A DNA stretch of 30,042 bases, taken from IMG/VR virus record IMGVR_UViG_3300028392_000023, positions 1 through 30,042 of that record; one strand, written 5' to 3'. The position numbers were made by a program, and so were the translations under genes. The notes beneath the pieces were generated by a model. It worked only from the letters and a program-made list of their open reading frames with translations, made no database searches and was not told where the DNA came from. Each line of letters starts with the position of its first letter. Position 1 is the first letter of the stretch. This document shows positions 852-30,042 of the stretch, one piece after another. The DNA comes from a virus.

Positions 852-1020
852 AGTTTTGCTTTGTTAGCATATCGTTTAGTCTATAAATAAGGTTAGTAAT
901 ACTTTTTTTTGTATTAATACCCATCACCTCGTTATCTTCTAAACGATCTGTTAGTACATTGACCATAAGTTTCATTTCATAGTAACTCATAGAACAAATC
1001 ACTCCAATATCTTTTTTCAT
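844..1020 (-). CDS. Hypothetical helical protein, 58 aa
   Basis: A soluble protein beginning MKKDIGVICSMSYYEMK and predicted largely helical, with alternating hydrophobic and charged residues (VLTDRLEDNEV; LIYRLNDML). The start at 1020 is just inside the 3' end of the 25-residue gene (ATGA-type overlap) and has a purine-rich but weak ribosome site. An internal start at residue 11 is possible. No family is recognised. Confidence 0.5.
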   Translation of the reverse strand: MKKDIGVICSMSYYEMKLMVNVLTDRLEDNEVMGINTKKSITNLIYRLNDMLTKQNYV

Positions 1021-1094
1021 TTCTTTTTTTTGTTTCCAAAAGCATCATACTTTTTATGATAAGCTTTTAATAATTTTGCTAGTTGTTTTTTCAT
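1017..1094 (-). CDS. Tiny basic peptide, 25 aa; first gene of the leftward unit
   Basis: It encodes MKKQLAKLLKAYHKKYDAFG and a lysine tail. It is the first frame with a plausible ribosome site (AAGTGA, 4 nt upstream of ATG 1094) after the divergent control region, and its stop overlaps the next start. Strongly basic and amphipathic. It could be a leader-type or nucleic-acid-binding peptide. Only the position and ribosome site support it. Confidence 0.4.
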   Translation of the reverse strand: MKKQLAKLLKAYHKKYDAFGNKKKK

Positions 1095-1301
1095 ATTTCA
1101 CTTTATGTTTTCTTTATATAAAATCAATATAGATATAAAATATTAATATCAACTTTAAAATTACAAATTGTTGATAATTTATACAAGAAATATATCAATG
1201 AAAACAATGACTTATTCGTTGCCATTTTGTTCTATATTTGATACTAGGGATTGTGGGTAAGTGCCTTCCCTTACCCACGTTAATAATATATAGGATAAAA
1301 T
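1095..1301. promoter_or_regulatory. Divergent control region between leftward and rightward units
   Basis: A 207-bp AT-rich stretch with no convincing gene separates the two opposed operons, so both promoters are expected here. On the plus strand, TTGCCA (1219-1224), a 17-bp spacer and TACTAG (1242-1247) form a possible sigma-70-type promoter, although the -10 is poor. An imperfect operator-like pair TTGATA/TATCAA lies at 1171-1176 and 1193-1198. A 20-codon frame at 1198-1260 could be a leader peptide but is unsupported. No strong leftward promoter stands out among the many TATA-like strings. Confidence 0.45.
1253..1278 (+). promoter_or_regulatory. GC-rich stem-loop at the head of the rightward transcript
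   Basis: GTGGGTAAG (1253-1261) and CTTACCCAC (1270-1278) form a perfect 9-bp stem with an 8-nt loop. It stands out as a GC island in an otherwise AT-rich intergenic region. No T-run follows, so it is not a simple terminator. It begins near the +1 predicted from the candidate promoter at 1219-1247 and could stabilise the 5' end of the mRNA. As DNA it could be an operator. The base pairing is seen directly; the function is inference. Confidence 0.55.
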
Positions 1302-1445
1302 ATGCCATTAATTAAAGGTTATTCAAAGAAATCAATAGCTAAAAATATTCATAGAGAATTTACTCGTGGACATTCTGCTGCTCAATCAGTAGCAATAGCT
1401 TTATCAGTAGCTGCAAAAGCAAGAGCAAGAGCCAAGAAAAAGTAG
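1302..1445 (+). CDS. Small basic phage protein, 47 aa
   Basis: It begins MPLIKGYSKKSIAKNIHREF, continues with an alanine-rich helix and ends in alternating Arg/Ala/Lys residues. This resembles a family of 40-50-residue basic proteins (MPLIKG-S-K-IS-NI pattern) often seen in aquatic phages and usually unnamed. A good ribosome site (AGGA, 7 nt before ATG 1302) and its position as the first rightward gene support it. The basic tail suggests nucleic-acid binding. Its stop overlaps the next start (TAGTG). Confidence 0.7.
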   Translation: MPLIKGYSKKSIAKNIHREFTRGHSAAQSVAIALSVAAKARARAKKK

Positions 1446-1831
1446 TGCAAATTAGGAAGGCAAACATCATTCATTCTGTTAAGCATCAGAAGTTCGTAGC
1501 TTCTTTTCCATGCGTAGTTTGTGGAAATAATACTCAAGTTCAATGTTGTCATATTCGTTCTATTCCCAAAATAGGTAATGTTGGTAAAGGCATAAGAGAT
1601 GACAAATATTGTATTCCAATGTGCTTTACTTGCCATTCATTACAACATCAAATTGGAGAATTAGAGTTCTTCTATAGATTTAATATAAACCCTATTGCAA
1701 TCAGTATGAAATTGGCTAGTATATCTCCTTGTATTAAATTAAACCAACTCAAGCAGGAAGGTGCATACAATGGAAGTCTTAACTATAAAGAACATATCCG
1801 AAATAACAAAAAAAGTTCTTTGCAATCCTAA
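1445..1831 (+). CDS. HNH-type / zinc-finger nuclease-like protein
   Basis: A 128-residue protein with paired zinc ligands: Cys23-x2-Cys26, Cys34/Cys35-His36, and later Cys60-x2-Cys63-His64 with His68. This is the order found in phage HNH-like proteins with a C-x2-C...HH...D...PxC-x2-H...H..G layout. After it comes a short helical segment with INPIAIS, as in these families (gIDPlaia). It may nick or cut DNA in recombination or packaging. The start GTG 1445 overlaps the upstream stop by one base and lacks a clear ribosome site. A later in-frame start is possible, but no ATG exists before the zinc motif. A classic beta-beta-alpha HNH triad is not certain. Confidence 0.68.
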   Translation: MQIRKANIIHSVKHQKFVASFPCVVCGNNTQVQCCHIRSIPKIGNVGKGIRDDKYCIPMCFTCHSLQHQIGELEFFYRFNINPIAISMKLASISPCIKLNQLKQEGAYNGSLNYKEHIRNNKKSSLQS

Positions 1832-2045
1832 TCTTTACAAAGAAGTAAATTTTTTTGAAGTTCCACATAACAAAGTTTGTCTAGCAGTAATTAGAGAATT
1901 AACTGAATTTTCTTATAATGATATTGGTAAAGCTTATGGAAAGTCTTGGTTTACAATTTATTCTGCTGTTAAAGATACGCAAAAAAATGGTTTAAAATCT
2001 TTTACTAACAGAGTAATTGAACTTGTTAAGGCAAAAGCAAAATGA
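1770..2045 (+). CDS. DnaA domain IV-like DNA-binding protein, 91 aa
   Basis: Residues about 38-68 (LAVIRELTEFSYNDIGKAYG...IYSAV) match the pattern of the DnaA C-terminal DNA-binding domain: an aliphatic-R-E-L-T helix, then S-x2-x-I-G-x-x-F/Y-G, then the recognition helix. The usual D-H-T-T-V signature is altered (SWFTIYS), so specificity for canonical DnaA boxes is doubtful. There is no ATPase domain, so this is a stand-alone domain. I chose ATG 1770 over an upstream in-frame GTG (1761) because AGGAAGG lies at the right distance from the ATG. It overlaps the HNH gene by 62 nt and the next gene by 4 nt, so it is probably co-translated with the replication protein. Confidence 0.7.
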   Translation: MEVLTIKNISEITKKVLCNPNLYKEVNFFEVPHNKVCLAVIRELTEFSYNDIGKAYGKSWFTIYSAVKDTQKNGLKSFTNRVIELVKAKAK

Positions 2046-2629
2046 CTGAAGGTTGGGTAAGTATATATCGCCAAATATTTGATAATAAAGATTTAAAAGA
2101 CAATAATCATTTATTGATATTTATTTACATGGTTGTTCATGCCAGTCATAAATCTGCTATTGTAACTTATAGAAAAAAACGAATAACATTAAAACGTGGA
2201 GAATTAGCTGTTGCTGTTAAAGACTTATCAAATAGATTTAGACTATCTGTTAAGACAATTAGAACTATTTTAAAGAACTTAGAGGTGGCAAACACATTGG
2301 CACATACTTTGCACAAGCAATTATCTATCTATACCATTGTAAATTATGACAAATTTCAGGATAATGATATCACTAAAATTAATCTAATCGGCAATCAAAC
2401 TGGCAAACAGAACAATAAATACTATACTAATACTACTAGTATAGATAAAAATATGTTAAGTCTTAGCAGTATGACTGATAAACCAAAGAAAATTACGATA
2501 CCTACACTGCAAAGCTTACATTCTAAACTTATTGAAAAACCTAAAGTTAAAAACGAGTTTGAAATTATGCGTGAAAAATTAGACGCAGATGACTATGAGA
2601 AATGGGTTCTTCGTAAACTAAATTCTTGA
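2042..2629 (+). CDS. Replisome-organizer-like winged-helix protein
   Basis: A 195-residue protein. The N-terminus (GWVSIYRQIFDNKDLKDNN, then ITLKRGELAVAVKDLSNRFRLSVKTIRTILKNLE) has the features of phage replication proteins of the O/DnaD-type replisome-organizer group. These are a GW-x-ly-R-x-i start, an iTlkrGel segment and a winged-helix with LS-x-rf-lSv-k-tiR-tiLk-le. Residues ending IVNYDKFQ close the wing. The C-terminal part is polar and linker-like, ending in a short helix that could recruit the host helicase. It starts by ATGA overlap with the DnaA-like gene. Such proteins often bind repeats next to their own gene, which points to the palindrome array just downstream. Confidence 0.75.
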   Translation: MTEGWVSIYRQIFDNKDLKDNNHLLIFIYMVVHASHKSAIVTYRKKRITLKRGELAVAVKDLSNRFRLSVKTIRTILKNLEVANTLAHTLHKQLSIYTIVNYDKFQDNDITKINLIGNQTGKQNNKYYTNTTSIDKNMLSLSSMTDKPKKITIPTLQSLHSKLIEKPKVKNEFEIMREKLDADDYEKWVLRKLNS

Positions 2630-2632
2630 TAT

Positions 2633-2774
2633 TAAAGAATAAATCTTTATAACAACTATACCAATATTGGTGCGTATTTTTTTAAATATGCTTTGATGTT
2701 TTTTAACATCTTGAGTCGTTTTTTAACGATTCCTCAATACTGTATTGGGTTTGGGGTGGTTTTTTAATCACCCC
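2633..2774 (+). other. Array of hairpins, four with TTTT loops (candidate origin or structured RNA)
   Basis: No gene fits between 2630 and 2846. Instead there is a chain of inverted repeats: 2633-2649 (6-bp stem), 2660-2671 (ACCAATATTGGT), 2672-2691 (8 bp with one G-T, loop TTTT), 2695-2710 (GATGTT-TTTT-AACATC), 2711-2737 (TCGTT-TTTT-AACGA inside TTGAG/CTCAA), 2735-2747 (CAATAC-T-GTATTG) and 2753-2774 (GGGGTGGTT-TTTT-AATCACCCC). Centres from 2681 to 2764 fall about 21, 20, 18 and 23 bp apart, close to two helical turns. Stem sequences differ but pairing and loop are kept. It lies directly behind the initiator-like gene. Pairings are seen; function is inference. Confidence 0.7.
2753..2774 (+). 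terminator. Strong hairpin, possible intrinsic terminator
   Basis: GGGGTGGTT and AATCACCCC pair over 9 bp (one G-T) around a TTTT loop. TTTAAAATTTAT follows, a weak U-tract. It is the last and strongest hairpin of the 2633-2774 array and could end or attenuate the first rightward transcript before the acidic-protein gene, which has its own strong ribosome site. Confidence 0.4.
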
Positions 2775-2846
2775 TTTAAAATTTATATATTTACAATTCC
2801 ATAAAATAACTTTAGAGATTCGCAATTAACTAAAGGAGAAATAGTT

Positions 2847-3023
2847 ATGGATAAAACAATAGAAAAAGTACTTAAGCTTTTAGACAAATCAGATGATCTA
2901 AATGCAAAAGCAAGGGACTTATTAGAATCATATCTTGATGAGTATGAAAATGATGATTCATACGAAGATACTTCAGAAGAAGATTTTGAAGATCAAGACG
3001 AAGAAGATTCTGACGAAGAATAA
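2847..3023 (+). CDS. Small acidic protein, 58 aa
   Basis: It begins MDKTIEKVLKLLDKSDDLNA, has a short amphipathic helix, and ends in about 30 residues that are mostly Asp, Glu, Ser and Tyr. The ribosome site (AAAGGAG, 8 nt before ATG 2847) is one of the best on this strand, so it is very likely expressed. The polyanionic tail recalls DNA-mimic or anti-restriction proteins and acidic tails that bind basic partners, but no family is recognised. It stands alone between the palindrome array and the lysin gene. Confidence 0.72.
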   Translation: MDKTIEKVLKLLDKSDDLNAKARDLLESYLDEYENDDSYEDTSEEDFEDQDEEDSDEE

Positions 3024-3035
3024 TCTAATCAGATA

Positions 3036-3065
3036 AGCTGAAAAGCTGGAAGGTTATCGCAACCT
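3036..3065 (+). promoter_or_regulatory. Twin mini-hairpins upstream of the lysin gene
   Basis: AGCT-GAAA-AGCT (3036-3047, a GNRA-type loop) is followed after GGA by AGGTT-ATCGC-AACCT (3051-3065). The lysin ATG at 3074 has no Shine-Dalgarno at normal spacing. The only candidate, GGAAGG, straddles the second stem. This could control lysin translation. The pairing is short, so this is tentative. Confidence 0.35.
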
Positions 3066-3073
3066 CAAAAATA

Positions 3074-3688
3074 ATGAATTTTGAATTTATGTCGCAGAAA
3101 CTCTACGACTATACAATAATAGGACTATTTCTATTATGCGTATTTCTTGCTGGAACATATTTCCCAAACGAAGAAACAAAAAGCAAGATACGTCAAAAAA
3201 CAATAGATGAGATCAGGAAGATTGGAATATTTGAACCAAAGATTGATACAAGTTCAAATGACAAGTTTATAGATAGCATGAAAAAATGTATTGCCTTTAT
3301 AAACTTAGATTTAAAACAAACTGACAGAGTGCCAACTGCTCTGGTTATTGCACAAAGCATAGTAGAATCCGATTTTGGAACTTCTAGATTTGCGAGAGAA
3401 GGCAATAACTTATTTGGAATTAGAATTTGGAGTAAAAACGGAATATTACCTTATAAACAACACGAAAGTTCAAACTGGAGAATAAAAACATATTCAACTA
3501 AATGCCAGTCTGTAAAAGATTACATAAACGTACTTAACAATAATCATCACTACTCTGATTTTAGAAACCTAAGGTTTAGAACTAAAGACCCAGTTAAATT
3601 AGCTGAAACATTAGAGAATTATTCTACTAGCCAAACTTACCGAACTGAGATAATTCGCATGATTAATAAAATTAAACATAAAATATAA
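3074..3688 (+). CDS. Membrane-anchored endolysin, glucosaminidase (GH73/FlgJ-Bax-like)
   Basis: A 204-residue protein with an N-terminal hydrophobic segment (about 13-29, IIGLFLLCVFLAGTYF) and a C-terminal glucosaminidase-like domain. Residues 87-117 show the family core PTALVIAQSIVESDFGTSRF, then GNNLFGIR. Glu99 in VESDFG is the probable catalytic acid. Later residues (YSTKCQSVKDYINVLNN, then Y...TYRTEI) fit the helical end of the fold. It would cleave the glycan strand after export. The single N-terminal anchor suggests a signal-anchor (SAR-like) or holin-independent lysin. It is encoded far from the holin and from the second, M15-type lysin. An internal ATG at residue 6 is an alternative start. 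Confidence 0.82.
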   Translation: MNFEFMSQKLYDYTIIGLFLLCVFLAGTYFPNEETKSKIRQKTIDEIRKIGIFEPKIDTSSNDKFIDSMKKCIAFINLDLKQTDRVPTALVIAQSIVESDFGTSRFAREGNNLFGIRIWSKNGILPYKQHESSNWRIKTYSTKCQSVKDYINVLNNNHHYSDFRNLRFRTKDPVKLAETLENYSTSQTYRTEIIRMINKIKHKI

Positions 3689-3801
3689 TGGCAAACGAAA
3701 CTACATCATCAACTTTAGCAGTTCTTATAAAGAACAAAATGAGAGTTAAAGGAACTTACAGAGTTTATGGGGCAAAAAAACCTAAGAGAAAAAAGAAATG
3801 A
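3688..3801 (+). CDS. Tiny basic protein sharing its N-terminus with the capsid protein, 37 aa
   Basis: It starts MANETTSSTL, identical for ten residues to the major capsid protein at 11014. It then diverges to AVLIKNKMRVKGTYRVYG and a Lys/Arg-rich tail. The nucleotide sequences of the shared part differ at several synonymous positions, so this is not a recent duplication. It overlaps the lysin stop (TAATG) and the next start (ATGA). The basic tail suggests binding to nucleic acid or to the acidic protein upstream. The shared start hints at a capsid-related role, which is inference. Confidence 0.62.
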   Translation: MANETTSSTLAVLIKNKMRVKGTYRVYGAKKPKRKKK

Positions 3802-3971
3802 AGAAACCTATTTGGGAAACTAAAAGACCACCTAATATTGGTAAACCAAAACCATTTAATACAAAATCAAAAGCTTATAAATCTGCAAGAAGATCAGCAG
3901 GTCAAAAATTTGGCAAGAAAAACAGCTTTGTTAAAAACCTCTACATAGCAAAGAAACTTAAATCAAAATGA
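3798..3971 (+). CDS. Small basic protein, 57 aa
   Basis: MKKPIWETKRPPNIGKPKPF is followed by a Lys/Arg/Ser-rich remainder (AYKSARRSAGQKFGKKNSF). It is strongly basic with few acidic residues, consistent with DNA or RNA binding. It is coupled by ATGA overlaps to both neighbours. Short basic proteins of this sort recur in phage genomes between lysis and packaging genes. No named family is recognised. Confidence 0.62.
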   Translation: MKKPIWETKRPPNIGKPKPFNTKSKAYKSARRSAGQKFGKKNSFVKNLYIAKKLKSK

Positions 3972-4048
3972 CATACGCACTAATTTGTTTAGGACTTTTA
4001 ATATCAATAATAGCTATAATTTATTTATTAGTTAGAATTTGCAAATGA
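3968..4048 (+). CDS. Tiny single-pass membrane peptide, 26 aa
   Basis: It consists of almost one transmembrane helix (MTYALICLGLLISIIAIIYL) with a short basic end (VRICK), giving C-in topology by the positive-inside rule. ATGA overlaps on both sides make it part of a translationally coupled chain. The neighbouring lysin suggests a lysis role, for example pinholin-like, but its size also fits an envelope-modifying peptide. Only the hydrophobicity is seen. Confidence 0.5.
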   Translation: MTYALICLGLLISIIAIIYLLVRICK

Positions 4049-4368
4049 GTTTACCTAACGAGATAGTGTTTGGAAGCAGACTTGTTAAGTTAGACTACAT
4101 TGAACACGAAGCAGCATCTAAGAAAAAGATTTTCGGAGAATTTGAATCAGACAAAAACTTAATGACAATAGACAAATCATTAGACAATGTTGAAATGAGC
4201 AACACATTACTTCACGAGGTATTTCATTTAATACATGACGAATACAAACTAGACTTACCAGCTAAAGCCGAAGAAATAACTTGTAATTCAATGGCTAATG
4301 GATTGTGCCATATTCTTTATCAAAACCAGAACCTACTAGACTTCCTTTACAAATCGTTAAAAAGATAA
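4045..4368 (+). CDS. Zincin-type metallopeptidase-like protein (ImmA/IrrE- or SprT-like)
   Basis: A 107-residue protein with the HExxH motif HEVFH (His57, Glu58, His61) after a helix NTLL. This is followed by LIHDEYKLDLPAKAEEITCNSMANGL, where Glu76 or Glu77 could be the third zinc ligand. The layout matches short phage gluzincins related to ImmA/IrrE, which can cleave repressors or other phage and host proteins. I prefer ATG 4045, which overlaps the upstream stop, over an in-frame TTG six bases earlier. The substrate is unknown. The XRE-type regulator at 29297-29596 is one conceivable target. Confidence 0.72.
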   Translation: MSLPNEIVFGSRLVKLDYIEHEAASKKKIFGEFESDKNLMTIDKSLDNVEMSNTLLHEVFHLIHDEYKLDLPAKAEEITCNSMANGLCHILYQNQNLLDFLYKSLKR

Positions 4369-5565: not shown

Positions 5566-5929
5566 GGAGAAAAAGGTAGGCAGACCAAAGCTTGATATTG
5601 ACCCAGAACAAGTAATGAGATTAGCTAGGTTGCATTGTACTATGCAAGAAATGGCAGATTTCTTTGGTTGCCATAGACACACTTTAAGGGATAATTTTTC
5701 GCCACAAATAGATAAAGGAAGATCAGAAGGCAATATTTCATTGAGAAGAAAACAATGGCAAATGGCAGTTGAAAAGGGTAATGTTGTTATGTTGATTTGG
5801 TTAGGCAAACAAATGCTCGGACAAAGAAACGAAATCATTGAATCCGATAGCAATACACCCTTACCAATTTACGATATAGTTGAAGATAAAAAAGAAGTTA
5901 TTGAAATGAAGGTTGAAGATGGCAAGTAA
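5531..5929 (+). CDS. Small terminase-like HTH protein
   Basis: A 132-residue protein. Residues 18-55 (GRPKLDIDPEQVMRLARLHC, then MADFFGCHRHTLRDNF) form a helix-turn-helix like those of terminase small subunits. It continues with KGRSEGNISLRRKQWQMA and NVVMLIWLGKQMLGQ, a conserved run I associate with phage small-terminase or DNA-packaging HTH proteins. The C-terminal 30 residues are acidic and probably contact the large subunit. It lies three small genes upstream of the large terminase. It overlaps the methyltransferase by 35 nt, and the zinc-ribbon gene starts inside its end. Confidence 0.78.
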   Translation: MSKQEKHTIQSEEKKVGRPKLDIDPEQVMRLARLHCTMQEMADFFGCHRHTLRDNFSPQIDKGRSEGNISLRRKQWQMAVEKGNVVMLIWLGKQMLGQRNEIIESDSNTPLPIYDIVEDKKEVIEMKVEDGK

Positions 5930-11872: not shown

Positions 11873-11900
11873 TTGGTGGGGGAGTAAAATCTCCCACCAA
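11873..11900 (+). terminator. GC-rich hairpin after the capsid gene
   Basis: TTGGTGGG (11873-11880) pairs with CCCACCAA (11893-11900). The inner AG/CT can extend the stem past a 2-nt bulge to a TAAAAT loop. No T-run follows, so it is more likely a 3'-end stabiliser or partial terminator for the capsid mRNA than a full stop. The next gene's ATG is only 6 nt beyond it. Confidence 0.6.
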
Positions 11901-29296: not shown

Positions 29297-29596
29297 TTAT
29301 ATATAAATGTCATTTTTAATTACTTTGTTATAATCTGATTTGATTAATTCAGCATCAAATAATTTATCAACAGTTACATCAAATATTTTAGATATTTTAA
29401 ATATTTGACTAGCTGACATTTCATTCTTTGCTAATTCAAATTTGCTTATTTGCTGTTCTATTGAACCAAGCATTTGAGCAAAATCTTTTTGCGTCATAAA
29501 CTTAACTTTACCAGTTGGTTGCTCTACTTTAGTATTGAATCGCAAGAACTTAATGTTACTTGCAAGTGTATTAACTATATCTTGCTTTCGTTCCAT
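29297..29596 (-). CDS. XRE-family transcriptional regulator
   Basis: A 99-residue protein. After MERKQDIVNTLASNIKFLRF the HTH_3 domain is clear: MTQKDFAQMLGSIEQQISKF, then ELAKNEMSASQIFKISKIFDV and the closing TVDKLFD, the usual end of Cro/CI-type domains. No cleavage or dimerisation domain follows, so it resembles Cro-like or host-derived regulators. I chose ATG 29596 because GGAAGG precedes it. An earlier TTG would add 11 residues. It lies inside the leftward early unit and may act at the divergent region 1095-1301. No integrase is present, so lysogeny is not implied. Confidence 0.8.
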   Translation of the reverse strand: MERKQDIVNTLASNIKFLRFNTKVEQPTGKVKFMTQKDFAQMLGSIEQQISKFELAKNEMSASQIFKISKIFDVTVDKLFDAELIKSDYNKVIKNDIYI

Positions 29597-29805
29597 GTTT
29601 CCTTCCATTTTTGCATAAATTGTTTCCAATATAATGAATCTGTTTTTTCAACATCATATTGAGGATATAACTTATAAAACTCATCTAAAGTCAAATCGCT
29701 ATGATCTAAAAGAGTATAATAATATTCAAAATAAGTTTCAACAATATGTGGGTGCTTTTTAGATTCTAAAAATAGTCTTTCTATTTCTTGTTTTACAGTT
29801 ACCAT
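29575..29805 (-). CDS. Hypothetical protein, 76 aa
   Basis: It begins MVTVKQEIERLFLESKKHPH, is helical and rich in Tyr/Trp/Glu (FEYYYTLLDHSDLTLDEFYK), and ends SLYWKQFMQKWKETWNESKI. The strong ribosome site GGAGAAGG precedes ATG 29805, nine bases after the lipoprotein stop. It overlaps the regulator gene by 22 nt. No family is recognised. Its coupling to the regulator suggests a related role. Confidence 0.66.
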   Translation of the reverse strand: MVTVKQEIERLFLESKKHPHIVETYFEYYYTLLDHSDLTLDEFYKLYPQYDVEKTDSLYWKQFMQKWKETWNESKI

Positions 29806-29814
29806 ACCTTCTCC

Positions 29815-30042
29815 TTAGTTGATTACATTATGACCACGACCCTTTAAACAATTACGAATATAACTTTCTCTATCGTATTTTGCTTCTGGGCTTAACCATA
29901 AAGTTTGTGGTCTTATAAAAAAATTATAAAAACCTTTTCCTGCTTCAACAGCTTTATTAGTATTATCTTCTGCTAACTTTGTGCAGTGTTGAATATCGTC
30001 AGTAAGTTCAGCAGCTCTACTTTCGTTCCAAGTTCCAGTTCT
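29815..30042 (-). CDS. Putative lipoprotein, 3' part (continues at 205..1)
   Basis: This is the remainder of the 101-residue lipoprotein gene that starts at 205 and crosses the circle junction. The last 127 bases of this segment duplicate the beginning of the window. The C-terminal part reads GFYNFFIRPQTLWLSPEAKY and ends RNCLKGRGHNVIN at TAA 29815-29817. Uninterrupted reading across the join (306 nt in all) is the main support for circularity. Confidence 0.75.
   Translation of the reverse strand, partial: RTGTWNESRAAELTDDIQHCTKLAEDNTNKAVEAGKGFYNFFIRPQTLWLSPEAKYDRESYIRNCLKGRGHNVIN
29916..30042. repeat. Terminal direct repeat (right copy), assembly closure
   Basis: Identical to bases 1-127. 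It should be removed to obtain the 29,915-bp circular sequence. This is an assembly overlap, not evidence of a physical terminal repeat. Confidence 0.93.

Follow-up and report, generated by a model that had tools for sequence, protein, structure and literature searches.

Leader RNAs in the form of structured non-coding transcript starts are represented in phages by the region of the lambda late promoter PR', by HK022 put and by lambda nut. Late-gene control at PR' is located between the replication and lysis genes of lambda, while the lambda replication origin is placed within gene O. The nut/N system of lambda is covered in PMC4496710. Phage PhiTE carries pseudo-ToxI, in which near-identical 36-nt pseudoknot repeats are found (PMC3475682), and 5'-terminal stem-loops that stabilise bacterial mRNA, of the ompA/papA type, are represented in the reference list of PMC3997798.

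Here we examine a string of six hairpins in IMGVR_UViG_3300028392_000023, the genome of a small AT-rich phage, analysed over its whole length of 30,042 nt (the window). The string is a real feature and probably a functional RNA. From its sequence it appears to be a structured phage leader or short RNA in a variant form; most relatives have one hairpin or none. Phages of this kind resemble the phages of SAR11-type bacteria, which belong to the most abundant viruses of aquatic environments and whose gene control and non-coding RNA are almost unstudied.

Genome context of the hairpin string

The record has identical 127-bp ends (1-127 and 29916-30042), and it is thus probably a complete, circularly assembled genome. 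Genes from ~1300 to 26,700 run rightward and the remaining genes leftward. The hairpin string sits at the early/late junction, in the gap that separates the replication genes from those for lysis, packaging and structure, among the features listed below (types A, B and C are slot states of related phages, described further on).

2042-2629, + strand: DnaD-like helicase loader (initiator gene), 195 aa, PHROG 2514, E 2.4e-19
2626-2653, + strand: sigma70-like promoter, -35 TTGATA at 2626-2631, 16-nt spacer, -10 TATAAC at 2648-2653, 10/12 consensus matches
2660-2671, + strand: 4-bp 5'-terminal hairpin (ACCA auau UGGU), a perfect 12-bp palindrome ACCAATATTGGT, at the predicted transcript start
2672-2691, + strand: hairpin 1, 8 bp, UUUU loop
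2695-2710, + strand: hairpin 2, 6 bp, UUUU loop
2713-2732, + strand: hairpin 3, 8 bp, UUUU loop
2733-2749, + strand: hairpin 4, 7 bp, CUG loop, palindrome CAATACtGTATTG
2753-2774, + strand: hairpin 5, 9 bp, UUUU loop, GC-rich, counterpart of the single hairpin of type B
2775-2795, + strand: AT block TTTAAAATTTATATATTTACA, common to types A, B and C
2847-3023, + strand: acidic protein, 58 aa, first gene downstream of the string, followed by the endolysin gene
3074-3688: endolysin gene, following the acidic-protein gene

A first-pass annotation of this DNA had noted a replication initiator next to the repeats, and the 195-aa helicase loader bears this out. Among cultured phage records no close relative of the initiator was found, the best identity being 25-33%. 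Just before it, at 1761-2045, lies a small protein of 94 aa, or 91 aa counted from its ATG, with a weak Pfam match to Bac_DnaA_C, the C-terminal domain by which DnaA binds DNA (E 0.007, below the cut-off). The 58-aa acidic protein has no match to a toxin family. In the phage collection, the nearest named matches are Pelagibacter phages and one freshwater phage, in the terminase region at 64-71% DNA identity, which makes a SAR11-type host likely. Freshwater relatives of Pelagibacter-type phages have been described (PMC6811365).

Predicted fold of the string

Nearly every base from 2660 to 2774 on the + strand takes part in six adjacent hairpins, four of which have UUUU loops; the bases linking them total 8. 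The predicted folding energy of 2620-2800 is -47.4 kcal/mol on this strand, compared with -25.6 in shuffles, a z-score of -5.9; for the - strand, z is -3.9. In a GC-regressed scan of the whole genome, the 142-nt stretch holding the string came out first of 1,274 windows tiled over both strands. The inverted repeats announced for 2633-2774 in the first-pass annotation are present and form the strongest GC-corrected fold of the genome. The leftmost repeat counted there (AAAGA...TCTTT, ~2634-2648), which lies outside the six hairpins, is not kept in relatives, and its location (~2633-2650) falls in the spacer of the promoter-like sequence, which is kept. Four UUUU loops are indeed present, but the core thought to be common to all four, GTTTTTTAA, is exact in three, the first UUUU hairpin having ATTTTTTTAAA. 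Just a 9-nt core recurs within the string. The genome has five + strand hairpins that combine a UUUU loop with a stem of 6 pairs or more, and four of them belong to the string.

Each of the four wobble pairs in the string reads G.U on the + strand and A.C on the - strand, which favours + strand RNA over a DNA cruciform. The earlier proposal that pairing kept through sequence change marks either RNA or a cruciform holds as regards paired structure, which is probably RNA. The regular spacing of 18-23 bp, taken earlier to point to an origin or partition-like locus, reflects the length of adjoining hairpins and is no evidence of helical phasing. In the leader, no reading frame is long or preceded by a Shine-Dalgarno sequence; a small ORF, MFFNILSRFLTIPQYCIGFGVVF (2696-2767), was judged accidental, as it has no Shine-Dalgarno sequence and is missing from type B.

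By a d'Aubenton-type terminator score every hairpin of the string is negative, the last one at -9.0 and the others lower, and the type B hairpins range from -9 to -58; the controls trpA and tR2 score +37.8 and +25.0. A scan over 1000-4200 found no terminator. In the type B branch of L001 and L004 the tail after the hairpin is TACAAAAA, with a single T. The string was accordingly rejected as an intrinsic terminator, having no U-tract and negative scores, in agreement with the previous view that it is no simple terminator. A covariance-model search of the window against Rfam 15 gave no match at gathering score, the best weak match being P26 at 16.7 bits where 36 are needed. A type III toxin-antitoxin RNA (ToxI-like) was also rejected, because tandem near-identical repeats before a toxin gene are absent.

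Slot states among related phages

Scans of viral contigs yielded about 63 distinct slots after the initiator gene, in about 60 distinct relatives. In type A (28 distinct slots) the slot is ~23 nt long, the cassette is absent and the initiator gene is kept. Type B slots (32 distinct) contain a promoter-like TTGAWA-16/17-TATAAN, then ACTANNTAGG, then one GC-rich hairpin. The six-hairpin string, type C, occurs just in the window and in one near relative, L035/L037 (one contig), which is nearly identical; searches for further members by promoter sequence and by the junction of last hairpin and AT block returned this near relative alone. Paired GTTTTTTAAC cores occur at 95 loci in viral contigs, with a cluster of at least three UUUU-loop hairpins in L037 alone. 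The fold, the promoter resemblance, the conservation, the slot states and their modular swapping can all be read from the sequences.

The comparison with related phages that the first-pass annotation proposed gave a divided outcome: the type B hairpin covaries, but type A has no cassette at all. The type B stem is rewritten by paired substitutions (GGGTGG/CCACCC vs GGGGGT/ACCCCC), and the closing pair is G-C or A-T. The loops vary among hairpins (UUUU, CUUUGU and UGAAAC, for example), suggesting that structure rather than loop recognition matters. On a tree of the initiator protein the label A has to change 14 times, and well-supported branches force 9 of these changes, indicating that the slot has often been swapped or gained and lost.

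Within type C, the window and L035/L037 differ at 1 of 145 nt in the string, at position 2750, which is unpaired and just outside hairpin 4. Third codon positions differ between the window and L037 at 6/110 (5.5%) in the two flanking genes, 17/205 in the endolysin gene and 54/411 in TerL. At the local rate, the chance of one change or fewer in the string is p ~0.003, which is suggestive, not final, of constraint, as the local divergence is small and recent recombination could mimic it. Type C is represented by two nearly identical genomes, and the covariation evidence comes from the single hairpin of type B.

In the L004 and L009 slot (L004 ~5610-5633), the start region TAATACGACTCACTATATAGG agrees over 17 nt with the promoter consensus of T7 RNA polymerase; in view of the family pattern of the slot, this striking likeness is probably a coincidence.

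Promoter-like sequence, start-site palindrome and AT block

The -35 element of the promoter-like sequence (2626-2631) overlaps the 3' end of the initiator gene. At the same place, all 32 distinct type B slots score 10-11 of 12 and type A scores 8, while 4 of 400 shuffles reach 10. The predicted transcript start (~A2660) is at the foot of the first hairpin, and nearly all of the following 115 nt are in stems or loops. Type B slots have the self-complementary ACTANNTAGG at the expected start site, in the same position as ACCAATATTGGT of the window. The central dinucleotide of ACTANNTAGG among distinct type B slots is TA (12), GC (11), AT (7) or CG (2), and is never non-self-complementary. Self-complementarity this strict suggests either that a symmetric protein binds the DNA or that one RNA molecule pairs with another. 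A helix-turn-helix protein at 29297-29629 was considered as regulator of the palindrome and rejected, since type A and type B phages alike encode it. A comparison of gene content found no protein that is present in all B and C phages and missing from all A phages.

Slots of all types adjoin the block TTTAAAAATTATATATTTACA. Its pattern was also sought in cellular genomes, where AT-rich matches in unrelated organisms were taken as chance. A fourth slot state was observed upstream of the acidic gene in L348-L353, L355 and L359-L362, where another replication gene precedes the slot and the AT block is a related one, CTTTAAATAAAATATATTGCAATAG. Retention of a related block next to a different upstream gene indicates that this block is part of the late operon. 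Judged by its sequence, it is probably the upstream part and -35 element of a common late-operon promoter (TTTACA or TTGCAA, 17 nt, weak TANNNN).

Other hairpins in the genome

The leader of the early rightward operon contains a hairpin at 1246-1281 with an invariant 8-nt loop, TGCCTTCC, of which relatives hold ~18 variants (e.g. L001, L007, L018 and L062). Its stem of 9-15 bp is wholly rewritten pair by pair, with G.U pairs on the + strand, and no Rfam match was found for it. It looks like a leader element that binds protein or RNA, perhaps nut-like, and arguably makes a better case for a conserved RNA than the six-hairpin string does. Directly after the major capsid gene, at 11873-11900, is a GC-rich hairpin without a T-tract, which is similar in relatives (GGTGGGG...CCCCACC) and is probably an mRNA-stability or partial-termination element.

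A proposed structured leader or small RNA

Our tentative preference is for a modular promoter with a structured untranslated leader at the early/late junction, which would feed the late operon. Host RNA polymerase would start at ~A2660. As the RNA emerged it would fold, its 5' end paired, into six hairpins in close succession. Transcription would then read through the AT block, where no terminator is evident, into the operon of acidic-protein and endolysin genes, making the string the 5' two-thirds of a ~187-nt untranslated leader. The hairpins would probably shield the message from 5'-end-dependent decay and insulate the ribosome site; type B would do the same job with one GC-rich hairpin, and type A would do without. 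We infer transcription, its start site, the read-through and the function of the cassette from sequence.

The leader reading is supported by the promoter-like sequence, which is fixed in 32 of 32 type B slots and in type C and is absent in type A. A stable stem-loop near the transcript 5' end, as in the 5' stem-loop stabilisers, is predicted here from the start at ~2660 and the paired 5' end. The G.U pairs count in its favour too, as they point to + strand RNA in the direction of transcription. On the other side, type A phages show that the late operon does not need the cassette, the AT block looks like a promoter of its own, so that the RNA could end there instead, and a pure stability role would leave the self-complementary ACTANNTAGG at the start site unexplained.

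The close rival to a leader is a discrete small RNA gene, which we consider possible but doubtful; the two differ in whether transcription stops near 2780. The promoter at 2626-2653 would produce an RNA of ~115-130 nt (~45 nt in type B) ending at the last GC-rich hairpin, the whole being a module inserted upstream of the late promoter. Promoter and last hairpin do enclose a non-coding unit that comes and goes as one piece, and the AT block just 3' of it, common to phages without the unit, resembles a separate promoter. Against this, every hairpin scores below zero as an intrinsic terminator, and the tail in L001 and L004, TACAAAAA, has a single T.

Less likely explanations

Antitermination, a replication origin and an RNA decoy are each less likely than a leader or a small RNA. 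An antitermination or polymerase-modifying leader, put- or nut-like, in which the nascent hairpins would allow RNA polymerase to read through the long late operon, seems improbable. The cassette stands between replication and lysis genes and is oriented like the late operon, which recalls the late-gene control of lambda at PR', and the early leader of the same phages has a strongly covarying hairpin with an invariant loop. In the string, a conserved RNA sequence or loop of the nut/put kind was not found: loops and stems differ between slot types. Moreover, no candidate partner protein tracks the cassette, and type A does without it.

We also give a small probability to a swappable promoter-RNA module in which self-complementarity would be selected and sequence left free, one lineage having expanded one hairpin to six, and whose product would be a discrete RNA acting on a host RNA-binding protein or nuclease. 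This reading draws on the presence of all four self-complementary centre dinucleotides and of no others, and on hairpins rewritten pair by pair.

The first-pass annotation had favoured an origin or partition-like locus. A replication origin, single-strand initiation site or partition site acting as a DNA-level cruciform is very unlikely here. The string adjoins the helicase-loader gene, an AT-rich block lies alongside, and the start-site palindromes stay self-complementary though their sequence changes. The cassette is nevertheless not kept wherever the initiator is kept, because 28 distinct type A slots have the initiator and no cassette, and the wobbles are all G.U on the + strand. The inflection in GC skew expected at the string lies elsewhere, the cumulative minimum being at 1164, a position confounded by divergent transcription. 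Perfect DnaA boxes occur near this point in the leaders of 22 of 43 distinct relatives; the window has no perfect box, and its nearest one-mismatch boxes (1169, 1252 and 2846) are all outside the array.

A second site argues against the string as origin. Within the initiator gene, ~2330-2360 and 2404-2473 show synonymous differences of 4-7% at the lowest, compared with ~30% elsewhere; a dyad (ATACTAcTAGTAT or ATACTATATAGTAT) persists there despite shifts of the surrounding reading frame. No conserved RNA fold was found at this element on either strand, and together with the dyad kept through the frame shift this indicates a DNA site, which is likely to be the replication origin; its location inside the gene matches that of the lambda origin in gene O. 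The surroundings of 1164 and the interior of the initiator gene are thus better origin candidates than the string, and the reading of an origin from proximity is weak at this locus.

Scarcely credible, finally, is an RNA decoy or mimic that would titrate a host RNA-binding defence or regulator and was enlarged by hairpin expansion in one lineage: the variable number of non-coding hairpins at one locus has a precedent in the pseudo-ToxI expansion of PhiTE (PMC3475682), but near-identical repeats are absent, the hairpins have no known counterpart among host RNAs, Rfam gives no match and the single-hairpin form is commoner.

Comparison with known systems

Intrinsic terminators share a GC-rich last hairpin with the string, which differs in having no U-tract. 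The PhiTE locus is likewise a phage non-coding locus with a variable number of RNA units, but the hairpins of the string differ in stem sequence and a toxin partner is absent. With the lambda PR' region, HK022 put and nut, the string shares a structured non-coding transcript start between replication and lysis genes; it differs from them in having no conserved boxA/boxB-like sequence or loop, no U-tract terminator and no candidate partner protein that tracks it. Close relatives provide a natural series of 0, 1 and 6 hairpins at one place, which makes a role of leader structure at the early/late switch directly testable. In the stem-loops of the ompA/papA type, one or two hairpins stand before one gene, whereas here there are six, end to end, in a number that varies between close phages; the likeness lies in the paired 5' end and in short stem-loops in an untranslated leader right after the promoter.
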